A stretch of 35,434 bases of DNA, from assembly GCA_944321715.1 (NCBI GenBank), contig CALUMJ010000003.1:86567-122000 (forward strand), in the 5' to 3' direction. The stretch comes from an uncultured Muribaculaceae bacterium (GTDB taxonomy: Bacteria; Bacteroidota; Bacteroidia; Bacteroidales; Muribaculaceae). The position numbers and the translations under genes were made by a program. Below the pieces are notes generated by a model. The model was not told the DNA's origin. It worked only from the letters and a program-made list of their open reading frames with translations, and made no database searches. Positions 16,615 through 23,836 of this stretch are shown here, one piece after another (position 1 is the first letter of the stretch; each line of letters begins with the position of its first letter).

Positions 16615-17907
16615 TTATGCCAGCCCGAATTCTTGCTGCAGGCGGTCAACATAGTCGAGTTTTTCCCATGTGAACAGCTCGACGGTGACGGTCTTGTCGC
16701 CCTCATACTTTGAGTGGAAGTGTTTCACCACGATGCGCGGCTCACGGCCAACGTGGCCGTATGCGGCAGTTTCCTCGTAGATGGGGTTGAGCAGCTTCAA
16801 GTCGCGCACGATTGAGCTTGGGCGCAAGTCGAATATTCGAGCGAAGCGTTCGGCAATCTCGGCATCGGTATGCGGCACGTGTTTCGTGCCGAAAGTGCTG
16901 ACGTACAAGCTCACAGGTTCGGCCCGGCCGATTGCGTATGCCACTTGCACCAGCATTTCGTCGGCAATGCCGGCTGCCACAGCGTTTTTGGCGATGTGTC
17001 GCACGGCGTATGCTGCCGAACGGTCAACCTTCGAGGGGTCTTTGCCCGAGAATGCGCCGCCGCCGTGCGCTCCACGCCCGCCGTAAGTGTCAACTATGAT
17101 TTTGCGCCCGGTAAGCCCCGTGTCGCCGTGGGGACCTCCGATTACGAATTTCCCGGTGGGGTTGACGAGCAAAATCAGCTTATCATCGAAAAGCGCACGT
17201 ACTCGTTCGGGCAATTTGGCCATTGTGCGCGGCAGCAATATGTCGTGCACGTCGGCCAGTATGCGGTCGTGCATCGCCTTGTCGGCGGCATCTTGCGCTT
17301 CGGGAGTGTCGTTGTCGGGGAGGACAAACTCGTCATGCTGTGTGCTGACTACTATGGTGTGCACGCGCACGGGTCGGCGGTCGTCGCCATATTCCACGGT
17401 CACTTGGCTCTTTGCGTCGGGGCGCAGGTAGGTCATTACCTTGCCTTCGCGGCGAATGTCGGCAAGTTCGCGCAGCAGCAAGTGCGACAGGTCGAGCGTC
17501 AGCGGCATGTAGTTGTCGGTTTCGTTGCAGGCATAACCGAACATCATGCCTTGGTCGCCGGCACCCTGCTCCTCGGGGGTGCTGCGTTCCACGCCGCGGT
17601 TGATGTCTTGCGACTGTTCGTGCAGGGCCGACAGCACACCGCAGGCGTCGGCATCAAACTTGTACTCGCTGCGGTTGTAACCGATGCGGTTAATCACGCT
17701 GCGGGTGACATCCATCAGGTCGATGTAGGCACTCGACTTCACTTCGCCGGCAATCACCACTTGCCCGGTGGTTACAAGGGTTTCGCAAGCCACTTTCGAT
17801 GAAGGGTCGTAGGCGAGGAACTGGTCGAGGACGGCATCGCTGATTTGGTCGGCCACCTTGTCGGGATGGCCCTCCGAAACAGATTCGGACGTAAACAAGT
17901 AATTCAT
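16615..17907 (-). CDS. metK: S-adenosylmethionine synthetase
   Basis: Makes S-adenosylmethionine from methionine and ATP. The start is the ATG at 17907 ([17 protein letters not shown]), giving 430 residues; the in-frame ATG at 17919 would add four residues, but the family begins at LFTSESV. Motifs are intact: GHPDKVADQ near residue 17, [12 protein letters not shown] near 130, and the P-loop-like [19 protein letters not shown] near 275. The C-terminal half carries the divergent spacing common in Bacteroidota MetK. A perfect promoter lies at 18096-18126, and between it and the start codon is a SAM-II riboswitch, so expression should fall when SAM is plentiful. Confidence 0.97.
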
Positions 17908-17939
17908 TTTTCCAAACATTTTTTTGCTGTGGAAAAATG
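17905..17939 (-). promoter_or_regulatory. start-codon-sequestering hairpin of the metK leader
   Basis: In the mRNA, CAUUUUUCC (17931-17939) is perfectly complementary to GGAAAAAUG (17905-17913), whose last three bases are the metK start codon. The same upstream segment, extended (17928-17938), also pairs perfectly over 11 bases with the aptamer strand at 18053-18063. The two pairings exclude each other, which is the layout of a translational on/off switch. Confidence 0.7.
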
Positions 17940-18016
17940 CTAAACGACTTTTATGCCCCTATGAGTGTTGACGTTGAAAATGTGTGAGATATTCAACCAA
18001 GTACAGGATTTTGAGC

Positions 18017-18066
18017 GTTTTAGCATTTTTTTGTGTGGTTGCAAGCAGCCAAATTTTTCCACAAGT
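18017..18066 (-). ncRNA. SAM-II riboswitch aptamer (SAM_alpha) upstream of metK
   Basis: On the minus strand the ~50-base element has the SAM-II layout. P1 pairs UGUGG (18059-18063) with CCACA (18034-18038). The loop contains AAUUUGGCUGCUUGCAA, very close to the conserved SAM-II loop. Downstream, GCUAAA (18019-18024) can pair with UUUGGC of the loop (18048-18053) to form the H-type pseudoknot. It lies about 25 bases into the transcript of the perfect promoter at 18096-18126 and about 110 bases before the metK start codon. SAM-II is known from alphaproteobacteria and Bacteroidota in front of methionine/SAM genes, so gene and motif agree. Confidence 0.87.
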
Positions 18067-18095
18067 TGTTAAACACTATATTCATTTTGAGTTTG

Positions 18096-20111: not shown

Positions 20112-21098
20112 ATGAATAACGTAAAGAAATTTTTATTACTCGCCGCCGCCATTCTAACGGCAGCCGATGTGCTTGCGCAGGGGCTCGTGAAACCTGCTGC
20201 GTTGAAGCCGGGCGACAAAGTGGCTGTGATTAGTCCGGCAAGCGCATGCAAGGAGAGCTATGTGATTGGAGCTTGTGAAGTGCTTAGGCAATGGGGATAT
20301 GAACCTGTGCTTGGACGGCACGCATTGGGCAAGAATGTGTCGTTTTCGGGTACGATAGAGGAGCGCAAGAGCGACTTGGTCGAAGCCCTCACCGACCCCG
20401 AAATCAAGGCAATAATATGCACACGAGGCGGATATGGCTCGGTACAGGAGCTGTGCGAGATGGATTTGGGCATTTTTGCCCGCAATCCCAAGTGGGTGGT
20501 AGGTTACAGCGACATCACGGCGATGCACGGAGCCATCACATCACAAGGTGTCATGAGCTTGCATGCGCCCATGTGCGAACATATCGACAAGTTTGACGGT
20601 GCCGACTCGTGCAGCCGCGCCCTGCGCAACATACTTGCTGGCATCATGCCGCACTACAAGGTGGCTGCCGATGCCCGCAATCGTCATGGGCAGGCAAGCG
20701 GTTTGCTGCTGGGTGGAAACCTGGCGCTACTCAATAGTTTCACCGCATCGCCCATCGATATGCTCGACCACTATGCCGGCCGTGATGTAATACTTTTTGT
20801 TGAAGATGTGGGTGAGTCGCTCGAACGGCTTAACAGGTTGTTTTATACCTTGAAAATCAATGGCACATTCAGTCGCATAAAGGGATTGATTGTAGGCTCG
20901 TTCAGCGATGTGAAATACACTCCCGACTTTGCCCATGTGTATGACATGGTGCAAAGCATCGTCAAAGATTATGACTTCCCGGTGGCTTACGGCTTCCCCG
21001 TGGGTCACACCGATGCCAACTATCCCATGGTCGAGGGCGCGCAAGTGACGCTCACTGTCGGCAGCGACGGAGCCGAACTCCTGTTCCTCGGCAATTAA
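20112..21098 (+). CDS. LD-carboxypeptidase, peptidase family S66
   Basis: A 328-residue exported protein (signal peptide 1-22, cleavage VLA/QG, Gln at +1). S66 enzymes cut the L-D bond that holds the terminal D-alanine on muropeptides during peptidoglycan recycling; the related MccF acts on microcin C. The catalytic triad is visible: Ser133 in GYSDIT, Glu231 in FVEDVGE, His299 in FPVGHT. The family motifs PGDKVAVISPAS and CTRGGYGS are also present. Most LdcA enzymes are cytoplasmic, so the signal peptide places this one in the periplasm, as is common in Bacteroidota. It adds to the cell-wall theme started by namZ. Confidence 0.9.
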   Translation: MNNVKKFLLLAAAILTAADVLAQGLVKPAALKPGDKVAVISPASACKESYVIGACEVLRQWGYEPVLGRHALGKNVSFSGTIEERKSDLVEALTDPEIKAIICTRGGYGSVQELCEMDLGIFARNPKWVVGYSDITAMHGAITSQGVMSLHAPMCEHIDKFDGADSCSRALRNILAGIMPHYKVAADARNRHGQASGLLLGGNLALLNSFTASPIDMLDHYAGRDVILFVEDVGESLERLNRLFYTLKINGTFSRIKGLIVGSFSDVKYTPDFAHVYDMVQSIVKDYDFPVAYGFPVGHTDANYPMVEGAQVTLTVGSDGAELLFLGN

Positions 21099-21312
21099 TC
21101 ATTTTTCCGGCATTGTCCTTGGTGGCTTGACATCAGTTATGATAAAGGATTACAGGGTATAAGTTCCCTGAAGAAGCAACTGTGTAGCCAAGCCGCTCGG
21201 CATTACATATTTAATCAACAGAATGCGGAAAAATGCACCTATAGCGAGCGAGAGGGGGGATGCTGGTTAGCGATTCTGGTTAATTTGCCCGATGAAAAAT
21301 GAAAAAATAAAT

Positions 21313-21344
21313 TTTGCATTTTAAAATTTAATAGTATATATTTG
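21313..21344 (+). promoter_or_regulatory. strong promoter of the structured leader/ncRNA
   Basis: TTTG (21313-21316), 20 bases, TATATTTG (21337-21344). The upstream gap 21099-21312 shows no gene, tRNA or clear repeat. Confidence 0.82.
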
Positions 21345-21349
21345 CAAAT

Positions 21350-21557
21350 GCCACCCATTGCGGAAGCCTCGTTAGGGCTGGGCGGGGGTGGCGGACATAT
21401 AAGGAAAGACGTTTACTTGGCGTTTTGTTCTTGACACTTTGAAATTTCGCAACTTTCATCAGCGTGGGCTTCTGCGTTGCTCGTTCCGGCAGGAAGGGCA
21501 ATGCGAAGGCCTCAAAGTGTGGGACGAGTAACAGGTACAGGTTCCCGCGCTTTTTTA
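21350..21557 (+). ncRNA. structured RNA, about 205 bases, family not recognised
   Basis: A transcript from the promoter at 21313 would begin near 21350 and end at the T-run at 21551-21556. Predicted parts: a 5' hairpin closed by GCCACCC (21350-21356) and GGGTGGC (21386-21392); a small AAGACG/CGTTTT hairpin; a long arm closed by ACACTTTGA (21434-21442) and TCAAAGTGT (21512-21520) around an inner stem-loop (GCGTTGC/GCAATGC); then a terminator. I could not match it to SRP RNA, tmRNA, RNase P or a known riboswitch. It may be an independent small RNA or the regulatory leader of the maturase gene at 21640, which has no promoter of its own. Confidence 0.65.
21517..21556 (+). terminator. Rho-independent terminator of the structured RNA
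   Basis: GTGTGGGA (21517-21524) pairs with TTCCCGCGC (21542-21550), followed by six T residues. The 5' arm shares four bases with the 3' arm of the preceding long stem. In addition, GGTTCCCG (21540-21547) is complementary to CGGGAACC (21599-21606) downstream, so alternative folds are possible in read-through transcripts. Confidence 0.72.
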
Positions 21558-21639
21558 TGTGTGTAACTGAATGCTATTATAAAAAACATGTCTGTTCACG
21601 GGAACCGCAGACGCAAAGGCACCGCAAATAACCGTTTGT

Positions 21640-22791
21640 ATGATTAACAATGCACATATCGCTATATTATGTTTGACTCACAGCTGTAACTTGAATTGTG
21701 TATATTGCTTTGAAAAGAAGGATAGTACACATGAATTGACATTTGAAGTTGCTTGTCAATGTGTTGATGAGATTATTGGAACAAATTGCTTGAAAGATGG
21801 TAATACCGTCAATTTGAACTTGTTTGGAGGTGAGCCTCTATTGAAGTTTGAATTGATAAAGAAGATATATGATTATGTGCAAGCGAATTATCCAGAATGT
21901 AATGTCTCGTTTTTTGCTTCGACTAATGGCACTTTGTTATCGGAAGAAATGAAGCAATGGTTTTTCGAACGAAAGGATAAGTTTTGTTTAGGCCTTAGTT
22001 TGGATGGCGACAGAGATTCGCAAAATCACAACAGGAGTAACTCTTTTGATGCGATAGACATTGAGTATTTTGCAAGGAATTGGCCAAACCAATTTTTCAA
22101 GTTGACAATTTCGGAGTATTCTGTTCGGAATTACGCTCATGATGTTAAGTTTATACACTCTTTGGGCATTGGCGTTAATGGCGGCGATGTATGTGTGGGT
22201 AATTATAAGTGGGATAAAGAGCAACTATATTATGTATATGCAAAACAATTGTTAGAGCTTGTTGATTATTATGAAAATAATCATGATGTTAAAAATAGCT
22301 TGTTCGAAATTGATTTGGCATCGTGTACTTCACCTCGTGTGGATAGAAAATGTTGTGGTTGCGGTACATCTATTTCATATTATGAAACTGATGGTAATAA
22401 GTACCCTTGTACGTTTATAGCTCCGATGGCATTTCCGCTAAAAGATTTACAAGAGATGCTTGTTGTGGATTTTAATGATGTGCAAAATTTCACCGATAAA
22501 GAATGTAAAGCAAATTGTTATTTATATAATGTATGTCGAACATGTGCTGCCGAAAATTATATGTTACATGGGCGGTTCGATATGTACAATAAACGCAATT
22601 GTGGACTTAAAAAGATATTGGCAATAGCTGTTGCTGAATTGCAGGCTCGCAGGATTGCTAAAAATCCAAGCCTTTATGATGCGACAAAGGTTTATCATAC
22701 TATTGAGGCGATAAAGAAGATTAAAGAATTATATGTGCCAGAATATGGCAAATACTTCATGGAGGAAGTCGAAAATCCAACAACAGAGTAG
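21640..22791 (+). CDS. radical SAM/SPASM peptide maturase (RiPP enzyme)
   Basis: A 383-residue enzyme. The radical SAM iron-sulfur motif CxxxCxxC is Cys16, Cys20, Cys23 (SCNLNCVYC), with GGEP at 63-66 binding SAM. The C-terminal half is a SPASM-type domain with further cysteines at 229, 238, 239, 241, 257, 289, 293, 299, 302 and 321. The spacing Cys241-x10-Gly-x4-Cys257, followed by CxxxC, x5, CxxC, is close to the pattern of peptide-modifying SPASM enzymes that bind two auxiliary clusters. Such enzymes form thioether or C-C crosslinks or epimerise residues in a ribosomal peptide. Four tiny ORFs follow directly. The gene is AT-rich compared with its neighbours, suggesting transfer. No transporter or protease is nearby. 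Confidence 0.88.
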   Translation: MINNAHIAILCLTHSCNLNCVYCFEKKDSTHELTFEVACQCVDEIIGTNCLKDGNTVNLNLFGGEPLLKFELIKKIYDYVQANYPECNVSFFASTNGTLLSEEMKQWFFERKDKFCLGLSLDGDRDSQNHNRSNSFDAIDIEYFARNWPNQFFKLTISEYSVRNYAHDVKFIHSLGIGVNGGDVCVGNYKWDKEQLYYVYAKQLLELVDYYENNHDVKNSLFEIDLASCTSPRVDRKCCGCGTSISYYETDGNKYPCTFIAPMAFPLKDLQEMLVVDFNDVQNFTDKECKANCYLYNVCRTCAAENYMLHGRFDMYNKRNCGLKKILAIAVAELQARRIAKNPSLYDATKVYHTIEAIKKIKELYVPEYGKYFMEEVENPTTE

Positions 22792-22816
22792 GCATAACAA
22801 TTAAAATCTGTGCAAT

Positions 22817-22954
22817 ATGTTAAATTCAGAGTTGATGAGTAAACTACTGAAAGTTCAATCAAATTTTACGTCAGTAGCCAAGAATGTTTACCATGTGTCT
22901 GTAAGAGACAGCCCATGTGGGAAAGGTCCTACCAATTGCCAAAATCAGTGGTAA
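22817..22954 (+). CDS. candidate RiPP precursor peptide A1 (45 aa)
   Basis: A small ORF 25 bp after the maturase stop. It encodes 45 residues beginning MLNSELMSKLLKVQ and ending CGKGPTNCQNQW. A second ORF 482 bp downstream shares the N-terminus (MLxSELMSKLxxVQ) and the C-terminus (CxxGPTNCQNQW), while the middle differs. A conserved leader-like start, a conserved Cys-containing end and immediate linkage to a radical SAM/SPASM enzyme are what a RiPP precursor should show. Cys34 and Cys41, separated by six residues, are the likely modification sites. I do not recognise this peptide family. It is too short for ordinary gene calling. Confidence 0.75.
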   Translation: MLNSELMSKLLKVQSNFTSVAKNVYHVSVRDSPCGKGPTNCQNQW

Positions 22955-22963
22955 TTGACAACA

Positions 22964-22987
22964 ATTGTCTTTTAATTTAAAGACAAT
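22964..22987 (+). other. hairpin between peptides A1 and B1
   Basis: ATTGTCTTT and AAAGACAAT form a perfect 9-bp stem around TAATTT, just after the stop codon of A1. There is no T-run, so it may be a processing or stability element that sets the dose of A1 against downstream peptides. No equivalent exists in the second unit. Confidence 0.5.
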
Positions 22988-23041
22988 GTCTGAGTGTTAT
23001 GTAAGTATTTAATAATTAATTAGATTAAAAAAAGATTTATC

Positions 23042-23146
23042 ATGGCAACACCTACAAATGATGAGATTAAGGAGATTTATGCTGAAGAAACTGAAGCTCA
23101 AACAGCATGGGATGCTACTGAGGATGTATTACTTGGTATAAATTGA
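23042..23146 (+). CDS. small acidic peptide B1 (34 aa), possible second precursor
   Basis: The ORF starts MATPTNDEIKEIYAEE and ends TEDVLLGIN. It is rich in Glu, Asp and Thr, has no Cys and contains one Trp. It occupies the position in unit 1 that B2 holds in unit 2, with matching AT-rich spacer sequence before both starts, yet the two proteins share little beyond acidity and length. It may be a second precursor, a helper or immunity peptide, or a non-functional frame; linkage and position are the only support. Confidence 0.45.
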   Translation: MATPTNDEIKEIYAEETEAQTAWDATEDVLLGIN

Positions 23147-23155
23147 ATTTTGCAT

Positions 23156-23184
23156 AAAAGTGTTAAACCTCAATTAGCACTTTT
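23156..23184 (+). terminator. weak terminator-like hairpin after unit 1
   Basis: AAAAGTGTTAA pairs with TTAGCACTTTT (11 bp including one G-T) around a 7-base loop; the 3' arm ends in four T residues. It may reduce transcription into the second unit. Confidence 0.45.
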
Positions 23185-23298
23185 ACTTAAAATTACAGGA
23201 GAGAAAATTTGATTATGATAGATTATCTTTCCTATGGTTCATGGAGGAGGCCGAAAATCCAGTAACAGAGTAGGTATAACAATTAAAATCTGCGCAAT

Positions 23299-23430
23299 AT
23301 GTTAAGTTCAGAGTTGATGAGTAAATTGACGGAAGTTCAGAATGGTTTAGATGACATAAAGGAATATTGTGGACATGTTTTGAATGAAACATGTGCAGGA
23401 GGTCCGACTAATTGTCAAAATCAATGGTAA
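23299..23430 (+). CDS. candidate RiPP precursor peptide A2 (43 aa)
   Basis: A paralogue of A1: MLSSELMSKLTEVQ at the start and CAGGPTNCQNQW at the end. It has an extra Cys (Cys24) in the variable middle, besides Cys32 and Cys39, whose spacing equals that of Cys34 and Cys41 in A1. The preceding 60 bp repeat the 3' end of the maturase gene and the original spacer. Keeping both ends while the middle diverges suggests selection on the leader and the modified C-terminus. Confidence 0.75.
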   Translation: MLSSELMSKLTEVQNGLDDIKEYCGHVLNETCAGGPTNCQNQW

Positions 23431-23495
23431 ATGTTTCTTGTATGTGTTTAATGAATTGATATGTTAAATAATTAATTCTGTTAAAAAGCATTATT

Positions 23496-23612
23496 ATGAA
23501 ACGTTTTATAGAAATTGATGATTTTGAAGTTTTTGTTGAAGAGCCAGAACCTCCTCTTACTACTGAACGAGAAGTGTTCGTACCTACTGAGGAAGAATTG
23601 ATAATTGATTGA
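23496..23612 (+). CDS. small acidic peptide B2 (38 aa)
   Basis: Begins MKRFIEIDDFEVFVEEPEPP and ends TEEELIID. Strongly acidic, without Cys or Trp. It is placed like B1 in the duplicated unit. A strong terminator follows at 23667, so it is the last ORF of the operon. Function unknown. Confidence 0.5.
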   Translation: MKRFIEIDDFEVFVEEPEPPLTTEREVFVPTEEELIID

Positions 23613-23666
23613 TTTAAGTACAAAGAGGTAAACGTCTCGTAACCTGTATTAGCATTTATATAAAAA

Positions 23667-23706
23667 AACACAGGAAAGAAAATTTGGTTTCTGTTCCTGT
23701 GTTTTT
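23667..23706 (+). terminator. Rho-independent terminator of the peptide operon
   Basis: AACACAGGAA pairs with TTCCTGTGTT, with AGAAA/TTTCT pairs extending the stem inward, followed by a T-run. This is the strongest terminator in the window and marks the end of the maturase/peptide operon. A decayed form of the same segment is found after unit 1 (about 23200-23235). Confidence 0.85.
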
Positions 23707-23836
23707 CTGTGTCAGGCGATACGCCATAAAATGCTGCATGGGGGGCAACATTAGTGTTTGTTTGCATTGTGTTGCATTGTTTTGCACATAATGCCTGTCG
23801 GGTTAACAATTATAAGCAAAAAACCGCTGTTTTTCT

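Follow-up and report, generated by a model that had tools for sequence, protein, structure and literature searches.

A 35,434-nucleotide stretch of the genome of an uncultured Muribaculaceae bacterium (GenBank assembly GCA_944321715.1; contig C3, CALUMJ010000003.1, positions 86567-122000; hereafter the window) carries an AT-rich island in which a gene for a radical S-adenosylmethionine (SAM) enzyme with a SPASM region is followed by two small, similar open reading frames (ORFs), A1 and A2. The source assembly comprises 2.8 Mb in 88 contigs and is 93% complete. It seems probable that this is an inserted locus for a ribosomally synthesized and post-translationally modified peptide (RiPP), with twin precursors that are each preceded by a DUF805b RNA element and for which a thioether within a C-x4-T motif is the likeliest modification. 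The pairing of a radical SAM maturase with two precursors, proposed in a preliminary description of this DNA, is well supported by the homology of the enzyme, by the peptides that lie beside related maturases, and by silent base changes in the precursor tails. The island very probably holds an intact, working maturase-precursor pair, and its predicted product is probably a chemically cross-linked short peptide. Two features of each cassette had been overlooked in the preliminary description: a DUF805b element ahead of the precursor and a small ORF behind it (B1 or B2). Coordinates are collected in Table 1.

Precursor peptides

A1 and A2 look like RiPP precursors, in that both are short ORFs beside a maturase gene and combine a putative leader with a cysteine-containing core. 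A1 begins 25 nucleotides (nt) after the maturase stop codon, as originally described; the distance of 482 nt given for A2 is correct from start to start, whereas the gap from the A1 stop codon is 344 nt. Comparison of the two peptides bore out the shared leader MLxSELMSKLxxVQ and the shared tail C-x-x-GPTNCQNQW on either side of a freely diverged middle with a gap, as well as two conserved Cys six residues apart (34 and 41 in A1, 32 and 39 in A2) and Trp as the last residue of both. A2 has an additional Cys24, and a C-x4-T motif is present in both peptides (C34/T39 in A1, C32/T37 in A2). A1 and A2 are evidently paralogues. Over the ten codons of GPTNCQNQW-stop their genes differ at four bases, and because all four are synonymous third positions, selection on the peptide is indicated. 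The probability that four random changes in this block would all be silent is 0.0009-0.0045, depending on transition bias and conditional on the block having been picked after inspection. The 13-codon tail as a whole has four synonymous and two nonsynonymous codon changes, and the 14-codon leader has two and three, respectively.

Neither A1 nor A2 had a match in NCBIfam or Pfam. The motif search that the preliminary description had recommended, run with a degenerate form of GPTNCQNQW, returned the two occurrences in the source genome, none in 197 other relatives with up to two mismatches allowed, and none in the viral contigs searched. The earlier suggestion of an undescribed family stands for the core to this extent, but the system is not a free-standing class, as the kinship of its enzyme indicates.

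The maturase and its relatives

The enzyme is encoded by one open frame and is intact, as had been noted from its cysteines: the radical SAM motif CxxxCxxC is formed by Cys16, 20 and 23, and ten Cys follow residue 228 (229, 238, 239, 241, 257, 289, 293, 299, 302 and 321). In an alignment with nine relatives, Cys16/20/23 and Cys239, 257, 289, 293, 299, 302 and 321 are invariant, and the seven C-terminal positions fit what we take to be the SPASM pattern, giving the protein the features of a radical SAM/SPASM peptide maturase. Its Pfam Radical SAM match exceeds the cutoff, and the leading NCBIfam profiles are all of peptide modifiers: PapB (NF047865) is first at 109.5 bits, below its cutoff of 340, followed by the CXXX-repeat maturase TIGR04115 (91.7 bits, below its cutoff of 350) and the CcpM and SCIFF maturases. 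Among solved structures, 5wgg/5why, which we take to be the ranthipeptide enzyme CteB, rank first both by PDB profile search (E 2.5e-38) and by Foldseek (E 3.5e-13), with a template modelling (TM) score of 0.63 to the AlphaFold model of the maturase; the entry title mentions thioether formation. The profile match begins at residue 96 of 5wgg, so that the N-terminal domain of 5wgg has no counterpart in the window enzyme.

The closest homologue found, at locus L076, is 38% identical. Nine related maturase loci from Odoribacteraceae, Tannerellaceae, Prevotellaceae, Muribaculaceae and unplaced Bacteroidales are 29-34% identical to the window enzyme, and two more were added later. These Bacteroidales maturases form a clade, termed CxxC after its peptides, with support of 98/99 in a first tree of 30 rows (14 labelled CXXX, 11 CxxC, 4 unlabelled, and the window enzyme) and 100/99 in a second tree, from which L034, L074, L049 and L007 were left out and to which L189 and L080 were added. 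Eleven of the 12 CxxC-clade maturases in the first tree adjoin a Cys peptide of 44-46 residues (loci L033-L041, L074 and L075) that ends in CxxCGLGCxG[IT]VG (one has CGMGC) or CxxCTNCSGIVG. When four of these peptides were compared with NCBIfam and Pfam none was recognised, the one match, to an unrelated family, scoring 19.8 bits against a cutoff of 123, and a literature search found no paper joining CGLGC peptides with radical SAM enzymes. In one case (L040:7291-9165), a CxxCTNC precursor is immediately followed by genes for a family 92 glycosyltransferase and a MORN/SH3 protein. A YcaO gene occurs in 4 of the 11 CxxC loci, some of which are short or cut; a YcaO partner for the window system was considered and rejected, with none found in the source genome at its 93% completeness.

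The window enzyme lies outside the CxxC clade in both trees. It pairs with L076 (support 100/99 and 100/98), a locus from the same family as the Odoribacteraceae loci with a CXXX-like peptide beside it, and the two sit within a mainly CXXX clade, whose maturase loci are likewise adjoined by Cys-rich peptides. Homologous maturases mostly adjoin short Cys peptides, which differ in sequence from A1 and A2. On a Phocaeicola massiliensis plasmid (OY725981.1; L189:1830-4843), a maturase with 32.7% identity at 97% coverage is accompanied by two paralogous 47-residue peptides that have CGCSGDCGSNWM in common, each preceded by a repeated TTGTCC...GGACAA hairpin with no Rfam match. No closer maturase turned up when 201 genomes of the order were searched; another maturase search gave a partial match in Lachnospiraceae (L042). 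The enzyme belongs among the many ranthipeptide-type maturases of Bacteroidales, a group with several types of Cys-rich precursor. Placement of A1 and A2 in the CxxCGLGC/CxxCTNC family, suggested by the shared TNC and by CSWCTNCSGIVGD in a genome of the same genus (G003), was rejected by the trees together with a profile test: the enzyme falls outside the clade, and neither peptide is matched significantly by the CxxC precursors.

Predicted chemistry and alternative readings

In the mechanism that we propose, the leader of A1 or A2 would dock on the maturase, the radical SAM cluster would generate a 5'-deoxyadenosyl radical, and an auxiliary cluster would bind a Cys thiolate before the thioether forms; between them, the three iron-sulphur clusters could make one or two intramolecular links in the 12-residue core C-x-x-GPTNCQNQW. 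By analogy with ranthipeptides, in which the thioether goes to a non-alpha carbon, the most likely cross-link is a Cys-to-Thr thioether, C34-T39 in A1 and C32-T37 in A2. The link in Tte1186a was first reported as Cys32-Thr37, the same spacing as C-x4-T (PMC8172795).

Several observations weigh against a thioether-forming RiPP island. According to the same source, the CteA link was later assigned to Cys32-Thr34 in another study, and an Asp or Glu acceptor is needed by PapB (PMC8172795), for which reasons the Tte1186a parallel is best treated as a lead. The A1/A2 core contains neither Asp nor Glu. The window enzyme sits on a long branch (1.7 changes per site), and the tree tool flags the placement of such a row as unsure. 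None of the best 25 of the 60 NCBIfam families matched reaches its cutoff, and the AlphaFold model, built from 10 sequences, is moderate (mean predicted local distance difference test score, pLDDT, 72.3), with values that drop under 50 over some stretches of the SPASM region. Among the relatives, L049 (on a long branch in the CxxC clade) and L008 (outside that clade) lacked a Cys peptide within the DNA retrieved. When the 11 CxxC precursors were made into a profile, A2 ranked first of the 287 window ORFs, but its E value of 0.51 was not significant, nor was that of A1 (5.8). Only a single genome is known to have the core, which therefore has no cross-species support. The ORF listing of the stretch shows no further long plus-strand ORF in the island, from which it follows that neither an exporter nor a protease is encoded there; export and leader removal would depend on genes elsewhere.

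A RiPP pair with other chemistry, in the form of epimerisation or a link via Asn, Gln or Trp, is a minority reading that we consider rather unlikely. Asn and Gln are abundant in the A1/A2 tail, the second Cys has no obvious partner, the tail of the Phocaeicola massiliensis peptides has no Thr, and the Foldseek matches of the maturase include the epimerase EpeE and SuiB, which makes a C-C link. These two come far behind 5wgg/5why in the ranking, however, both Cys are kept in A1 and A2, and with Trp as the final residue the aromatic-x-x ring of triceptides could not start there. A decaying or orphan cassette, in which the enzyme is or was of CXXX type and A1 and A2 are relics or not its substrates, would fit the long branch, the singleton core, the missing exporter and the CXXX-type peptide beside L076, but is very improbable given an open maturase frame with all catalytic Cys, tail-block changes between the copies that are silent only, and DUF805b elements kept in both cassettes. 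A working pair with a Cys-Thr thioether remains the preferred reading.

DUF805b elements

Both elements belong to Rfam DUF805b (RF02914), scoring above the gathering threshold, and both end 22 nt before the precursor ATG. Element 1 overlaps the end of the maturase gene, with the TAG stop codon inside the conserved AGAGUAGG. The repeat that begins at 22756 and 23238 was considered as a duplicated maturase end, and this was rejected, since it starts 3 nt before DUF805b, an element in which the final codons of the enzyme happen to lie. An element in this position probably separates precursor expression from maturase expression, and could raise or gate the former relative to the enzyme.

DUF805b was also found in 2 of 20 related loci, L033 and L036, where 22 and 20 nt, respectively, separate it from the CxxC precursor downstream; the other 18 had no match at the gathering score, and L189 and L182 had none at E 0.1. 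A third match above cutoff in the source genome lies 20 nt upstream of an ORF of 39 residues with the ending SGPCDMCWGDLSL. That ORF is part of a second, different RiPP-like cluster (G000:C4:61591-68275; L098, L148), in which it is followed by two SPASM-like and three MiaB-like radical SAM genes in interleaved order, all named by eye.

Across the family, 31 of 247 genomes matched DUF805b at E 1e-7, 30 of them above cutoff. We inspected all 43 listed sites other than the window's two (loci L129-L171). An ATG-initiated ORF of at least 25 amino acids began 18-29 nt downstream at 37 of the 43 by script, or 39 with two added by eye. At eight sites, including the C4 site of the source genome, a gene with CxxxCxxC starts within 700 nt (radical SAM genes being recognised here by this Cys pattern, without a profile), and at all eight a Cys-containing ORF of 28-53 amino acids stands in front of it. 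We infer that this association with radical SAM genes is far above chance. The peptides between DUF805b and the CxxxCxxC genes at L129, L130, L134, L142, L146, L149 and L152 are short, contain Cys and are unlike in sequence, EWCDRCGQGGAAPLD and GCCDCFGGGCRCNH being examples. At the remaining 35 sites the element stands before genes of other kinds, many of them small or, as judged by eye, outer-membrane-like. DUF805b is therefore not specific to RiPPs, and the idea of a RiPP-only element was rejected. A literature search found no paper on the DUF805 RNA motif in Bacteroidetes, and among papers listed for DUF805 no title concerned the RNA.

The structure line that Rfam prints for DUF805b contains a stem only, yet a loop triplet xCC is complementary to a 3' triplet GGy. 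In 47 elements (the 43 sites, the window's two, L033 and L036), two of the three pairs of this candidate pseudoknot are kept throughout, and the outer pair is G:C in 20, U:A in 10, C:G in 8, G:U in 4 and a non-pair in 5. The triplets pair in 39 of 44 distinct sequences, a count reached by none of 100,000 shuffles (maximum 30), although shuffling ignores relatedness; after thinning, so that the sequences left differ at more than four positions, pairing holds in 26 of 31. In a covariation subset of 20 author-chosen sequences (19 distinct), which contains none of the five exceptions, the pseudoknot helix was 100% paired with four pair types, compared with 89.5% for the known stem, and shifting the partners abolished the signal. 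The window's two copies each keep the three pairs, one of them G-U. These patterns indicate that DUF805b covaries as a pseudoknot.

Island and gene layout

Table 1. Features of the island and its upstream flank (window coordinates).
Feature	Position	Strand	Remarks
LD-carboxypeptidase-like gene (name by eye)	20112-21098		upstream flank of island
AT-rich island	21099..23745	.	2.65 kb, edges approximate; GC content 0.361 vs 0.486 in window
Promoter-like TATATTTG, Bacteroides -7 type	21337..21344	+	pattern only
Radical SAM/SPASM peptide maturase, 383 amino acids	21640..22791	+	single open frame
DUF805b RNA element 1	22759..22794	+	43.8 bits vs gathering 35.6
Precursor peptide A1, 45 amino acids, core CGKGPTNCQNQW	22817..22954	+	
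Small ORF B1, 34 amino acids, acidic, no Cys	23042..23146	+	uncertain coding status
Hairpins between cassettes	23155..23239	+	z -2.8 and -1.5
DUF805b RNA element 2	23241..23276	+	45.9 bits vs gathering 35.6
Precursor peptide A2, 43 amino acids, core CAGGPTNCQNQW	23299..23430	+	
Small ORF B2, 38 amino acids, acidic, no Cys	23496..23612	+	uncertain coding status
Terminator-like hairpin, followed by T	23664..23706	+	fold z -3.9; 1/200 shuffles equally low

The flanking genes, of which the downstream one encodes a DUF2795 protein, adjoin without the island in six of eight other congeneric genomes, with aligned ends 30-118 bases apart; the other two have a different upstream gene at the site. By blastn, the 2.65-kb island had no match in any of the nine fetched loci. 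It has been gained in the source lineage or lost from the other congeners. A vehicle was sought and none found: there was no plasmid DNA match to the island, the best protein matches to the maturase in plasmid and phage catalogues were 32.7% and 30.5% identical, a first viral scan for the maturase confirmed nothing, and a second yielded two weak matches (22-28%). The AT-richness previously reported is confirmed by a GC content of 0.337 over 21640-23612, where the lowest-GC 1970-base stretches of the window are located.

The two copies of the duplicated unit start at 22756 and 23238, and the last piece that they share extends to 23214 and 23689, respectively; the internal order is RNA element, precursor A, small ORF B, hairpins. 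B1 and B2 resemble each other weakly and had no match in NCBIfam or Pfam; they may or may not be genuine genes. The hairpins between the cassettes fold at 23160-23180 and 23191-23239 in one prediction and at 23155-23185 in another. A promoter near 21337 would give a transcript of the maturase and first cassette; the pattern behind it, presumably the Bacteroides -7 consensus, matches 38 times in the window against 24 expected. The strong terminator proposed for the end of the set is present as a stable hairpin followed by T, but was not listed by a simple terminator scan of the window. Outside the island, a SAM-II riboswitch (18010-18068, minus strand, 60.5 bits) precedes a minus-strand ORF that by eye resembles S-adenosylmethionine synthetase (16615-17919).

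Comparison with known systems

Radical SAM areas were the commonest in a RiPP survey of 1,136 Bacteroidales genomes, and the portion of that survey available to us does not mention the core C-x-x-GPTNCQNQW (PMC10352776). The evidence supports a kind of system that is already known, with a core that is uncatalogued as far as searched and so far comes from one genome. The RiPPs of gut Bacteroidales have been little explored, and the system extends them by a precursor core not listed before and by a divergent maturase. It also provides a minimal enzyme-plus-peptide pair for cross-link discovery and connects RiPP precursors with an RNA motif already in the catalogue, for which covariation supports a pseudoknot and whose role is directly testable. 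More tentatively, the twins might constitute a new RiPP family, each switched by a pseudoknotted DUF805b that serves in Muribaculaceae as a shared controller of unlike radical SAM peptide clusters and surface proteins. We regard this as possible rather than probable; if true, the peptide makers of one cell, including the island and the C4 cluster, would answer one signal.

The system shares with CXXX-repeat systems (TIGR04115) the pairing of its enzyme with L076 and the small precursors adjoining the gene, but in the A1/A2 core two Cys are conserved and a CXXX repeat is absent. The PapB/freyrasin and CteB-Tte1186/SCIFF ranthipeptide systems supply the best profile (PapB), the best solved relative, and the C-x4-T spacing, which equals that of the Tte1186a link in its first report, whereas the window enzyme is below cutoff and has no N-terminal domain before its radical SAM part, and the precursor core has no Asp or Glu and does not have six Cys. 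The Bacteroidales CxxCGLGC/CxxCTNC peptides are alike in being small, in lying beside a maturase of 29-34% identity and, in two cases, behind DUF805b, but they belong with another clade and have no significant similarity to A1 and A2. The Phocaeicola massiliensis twins match in having two paralogous precursors, a fixed Cys/Asn/Trp tail and a repeated hairpin before each; they differ in having three Cys, a tail without Thr and a hairpin that is not DUF805b. In comparison with the Rfam entry RF02914, DUF805b is found here before RiPP precursors and with a predicted pseudoknot beyond the printed structure line.

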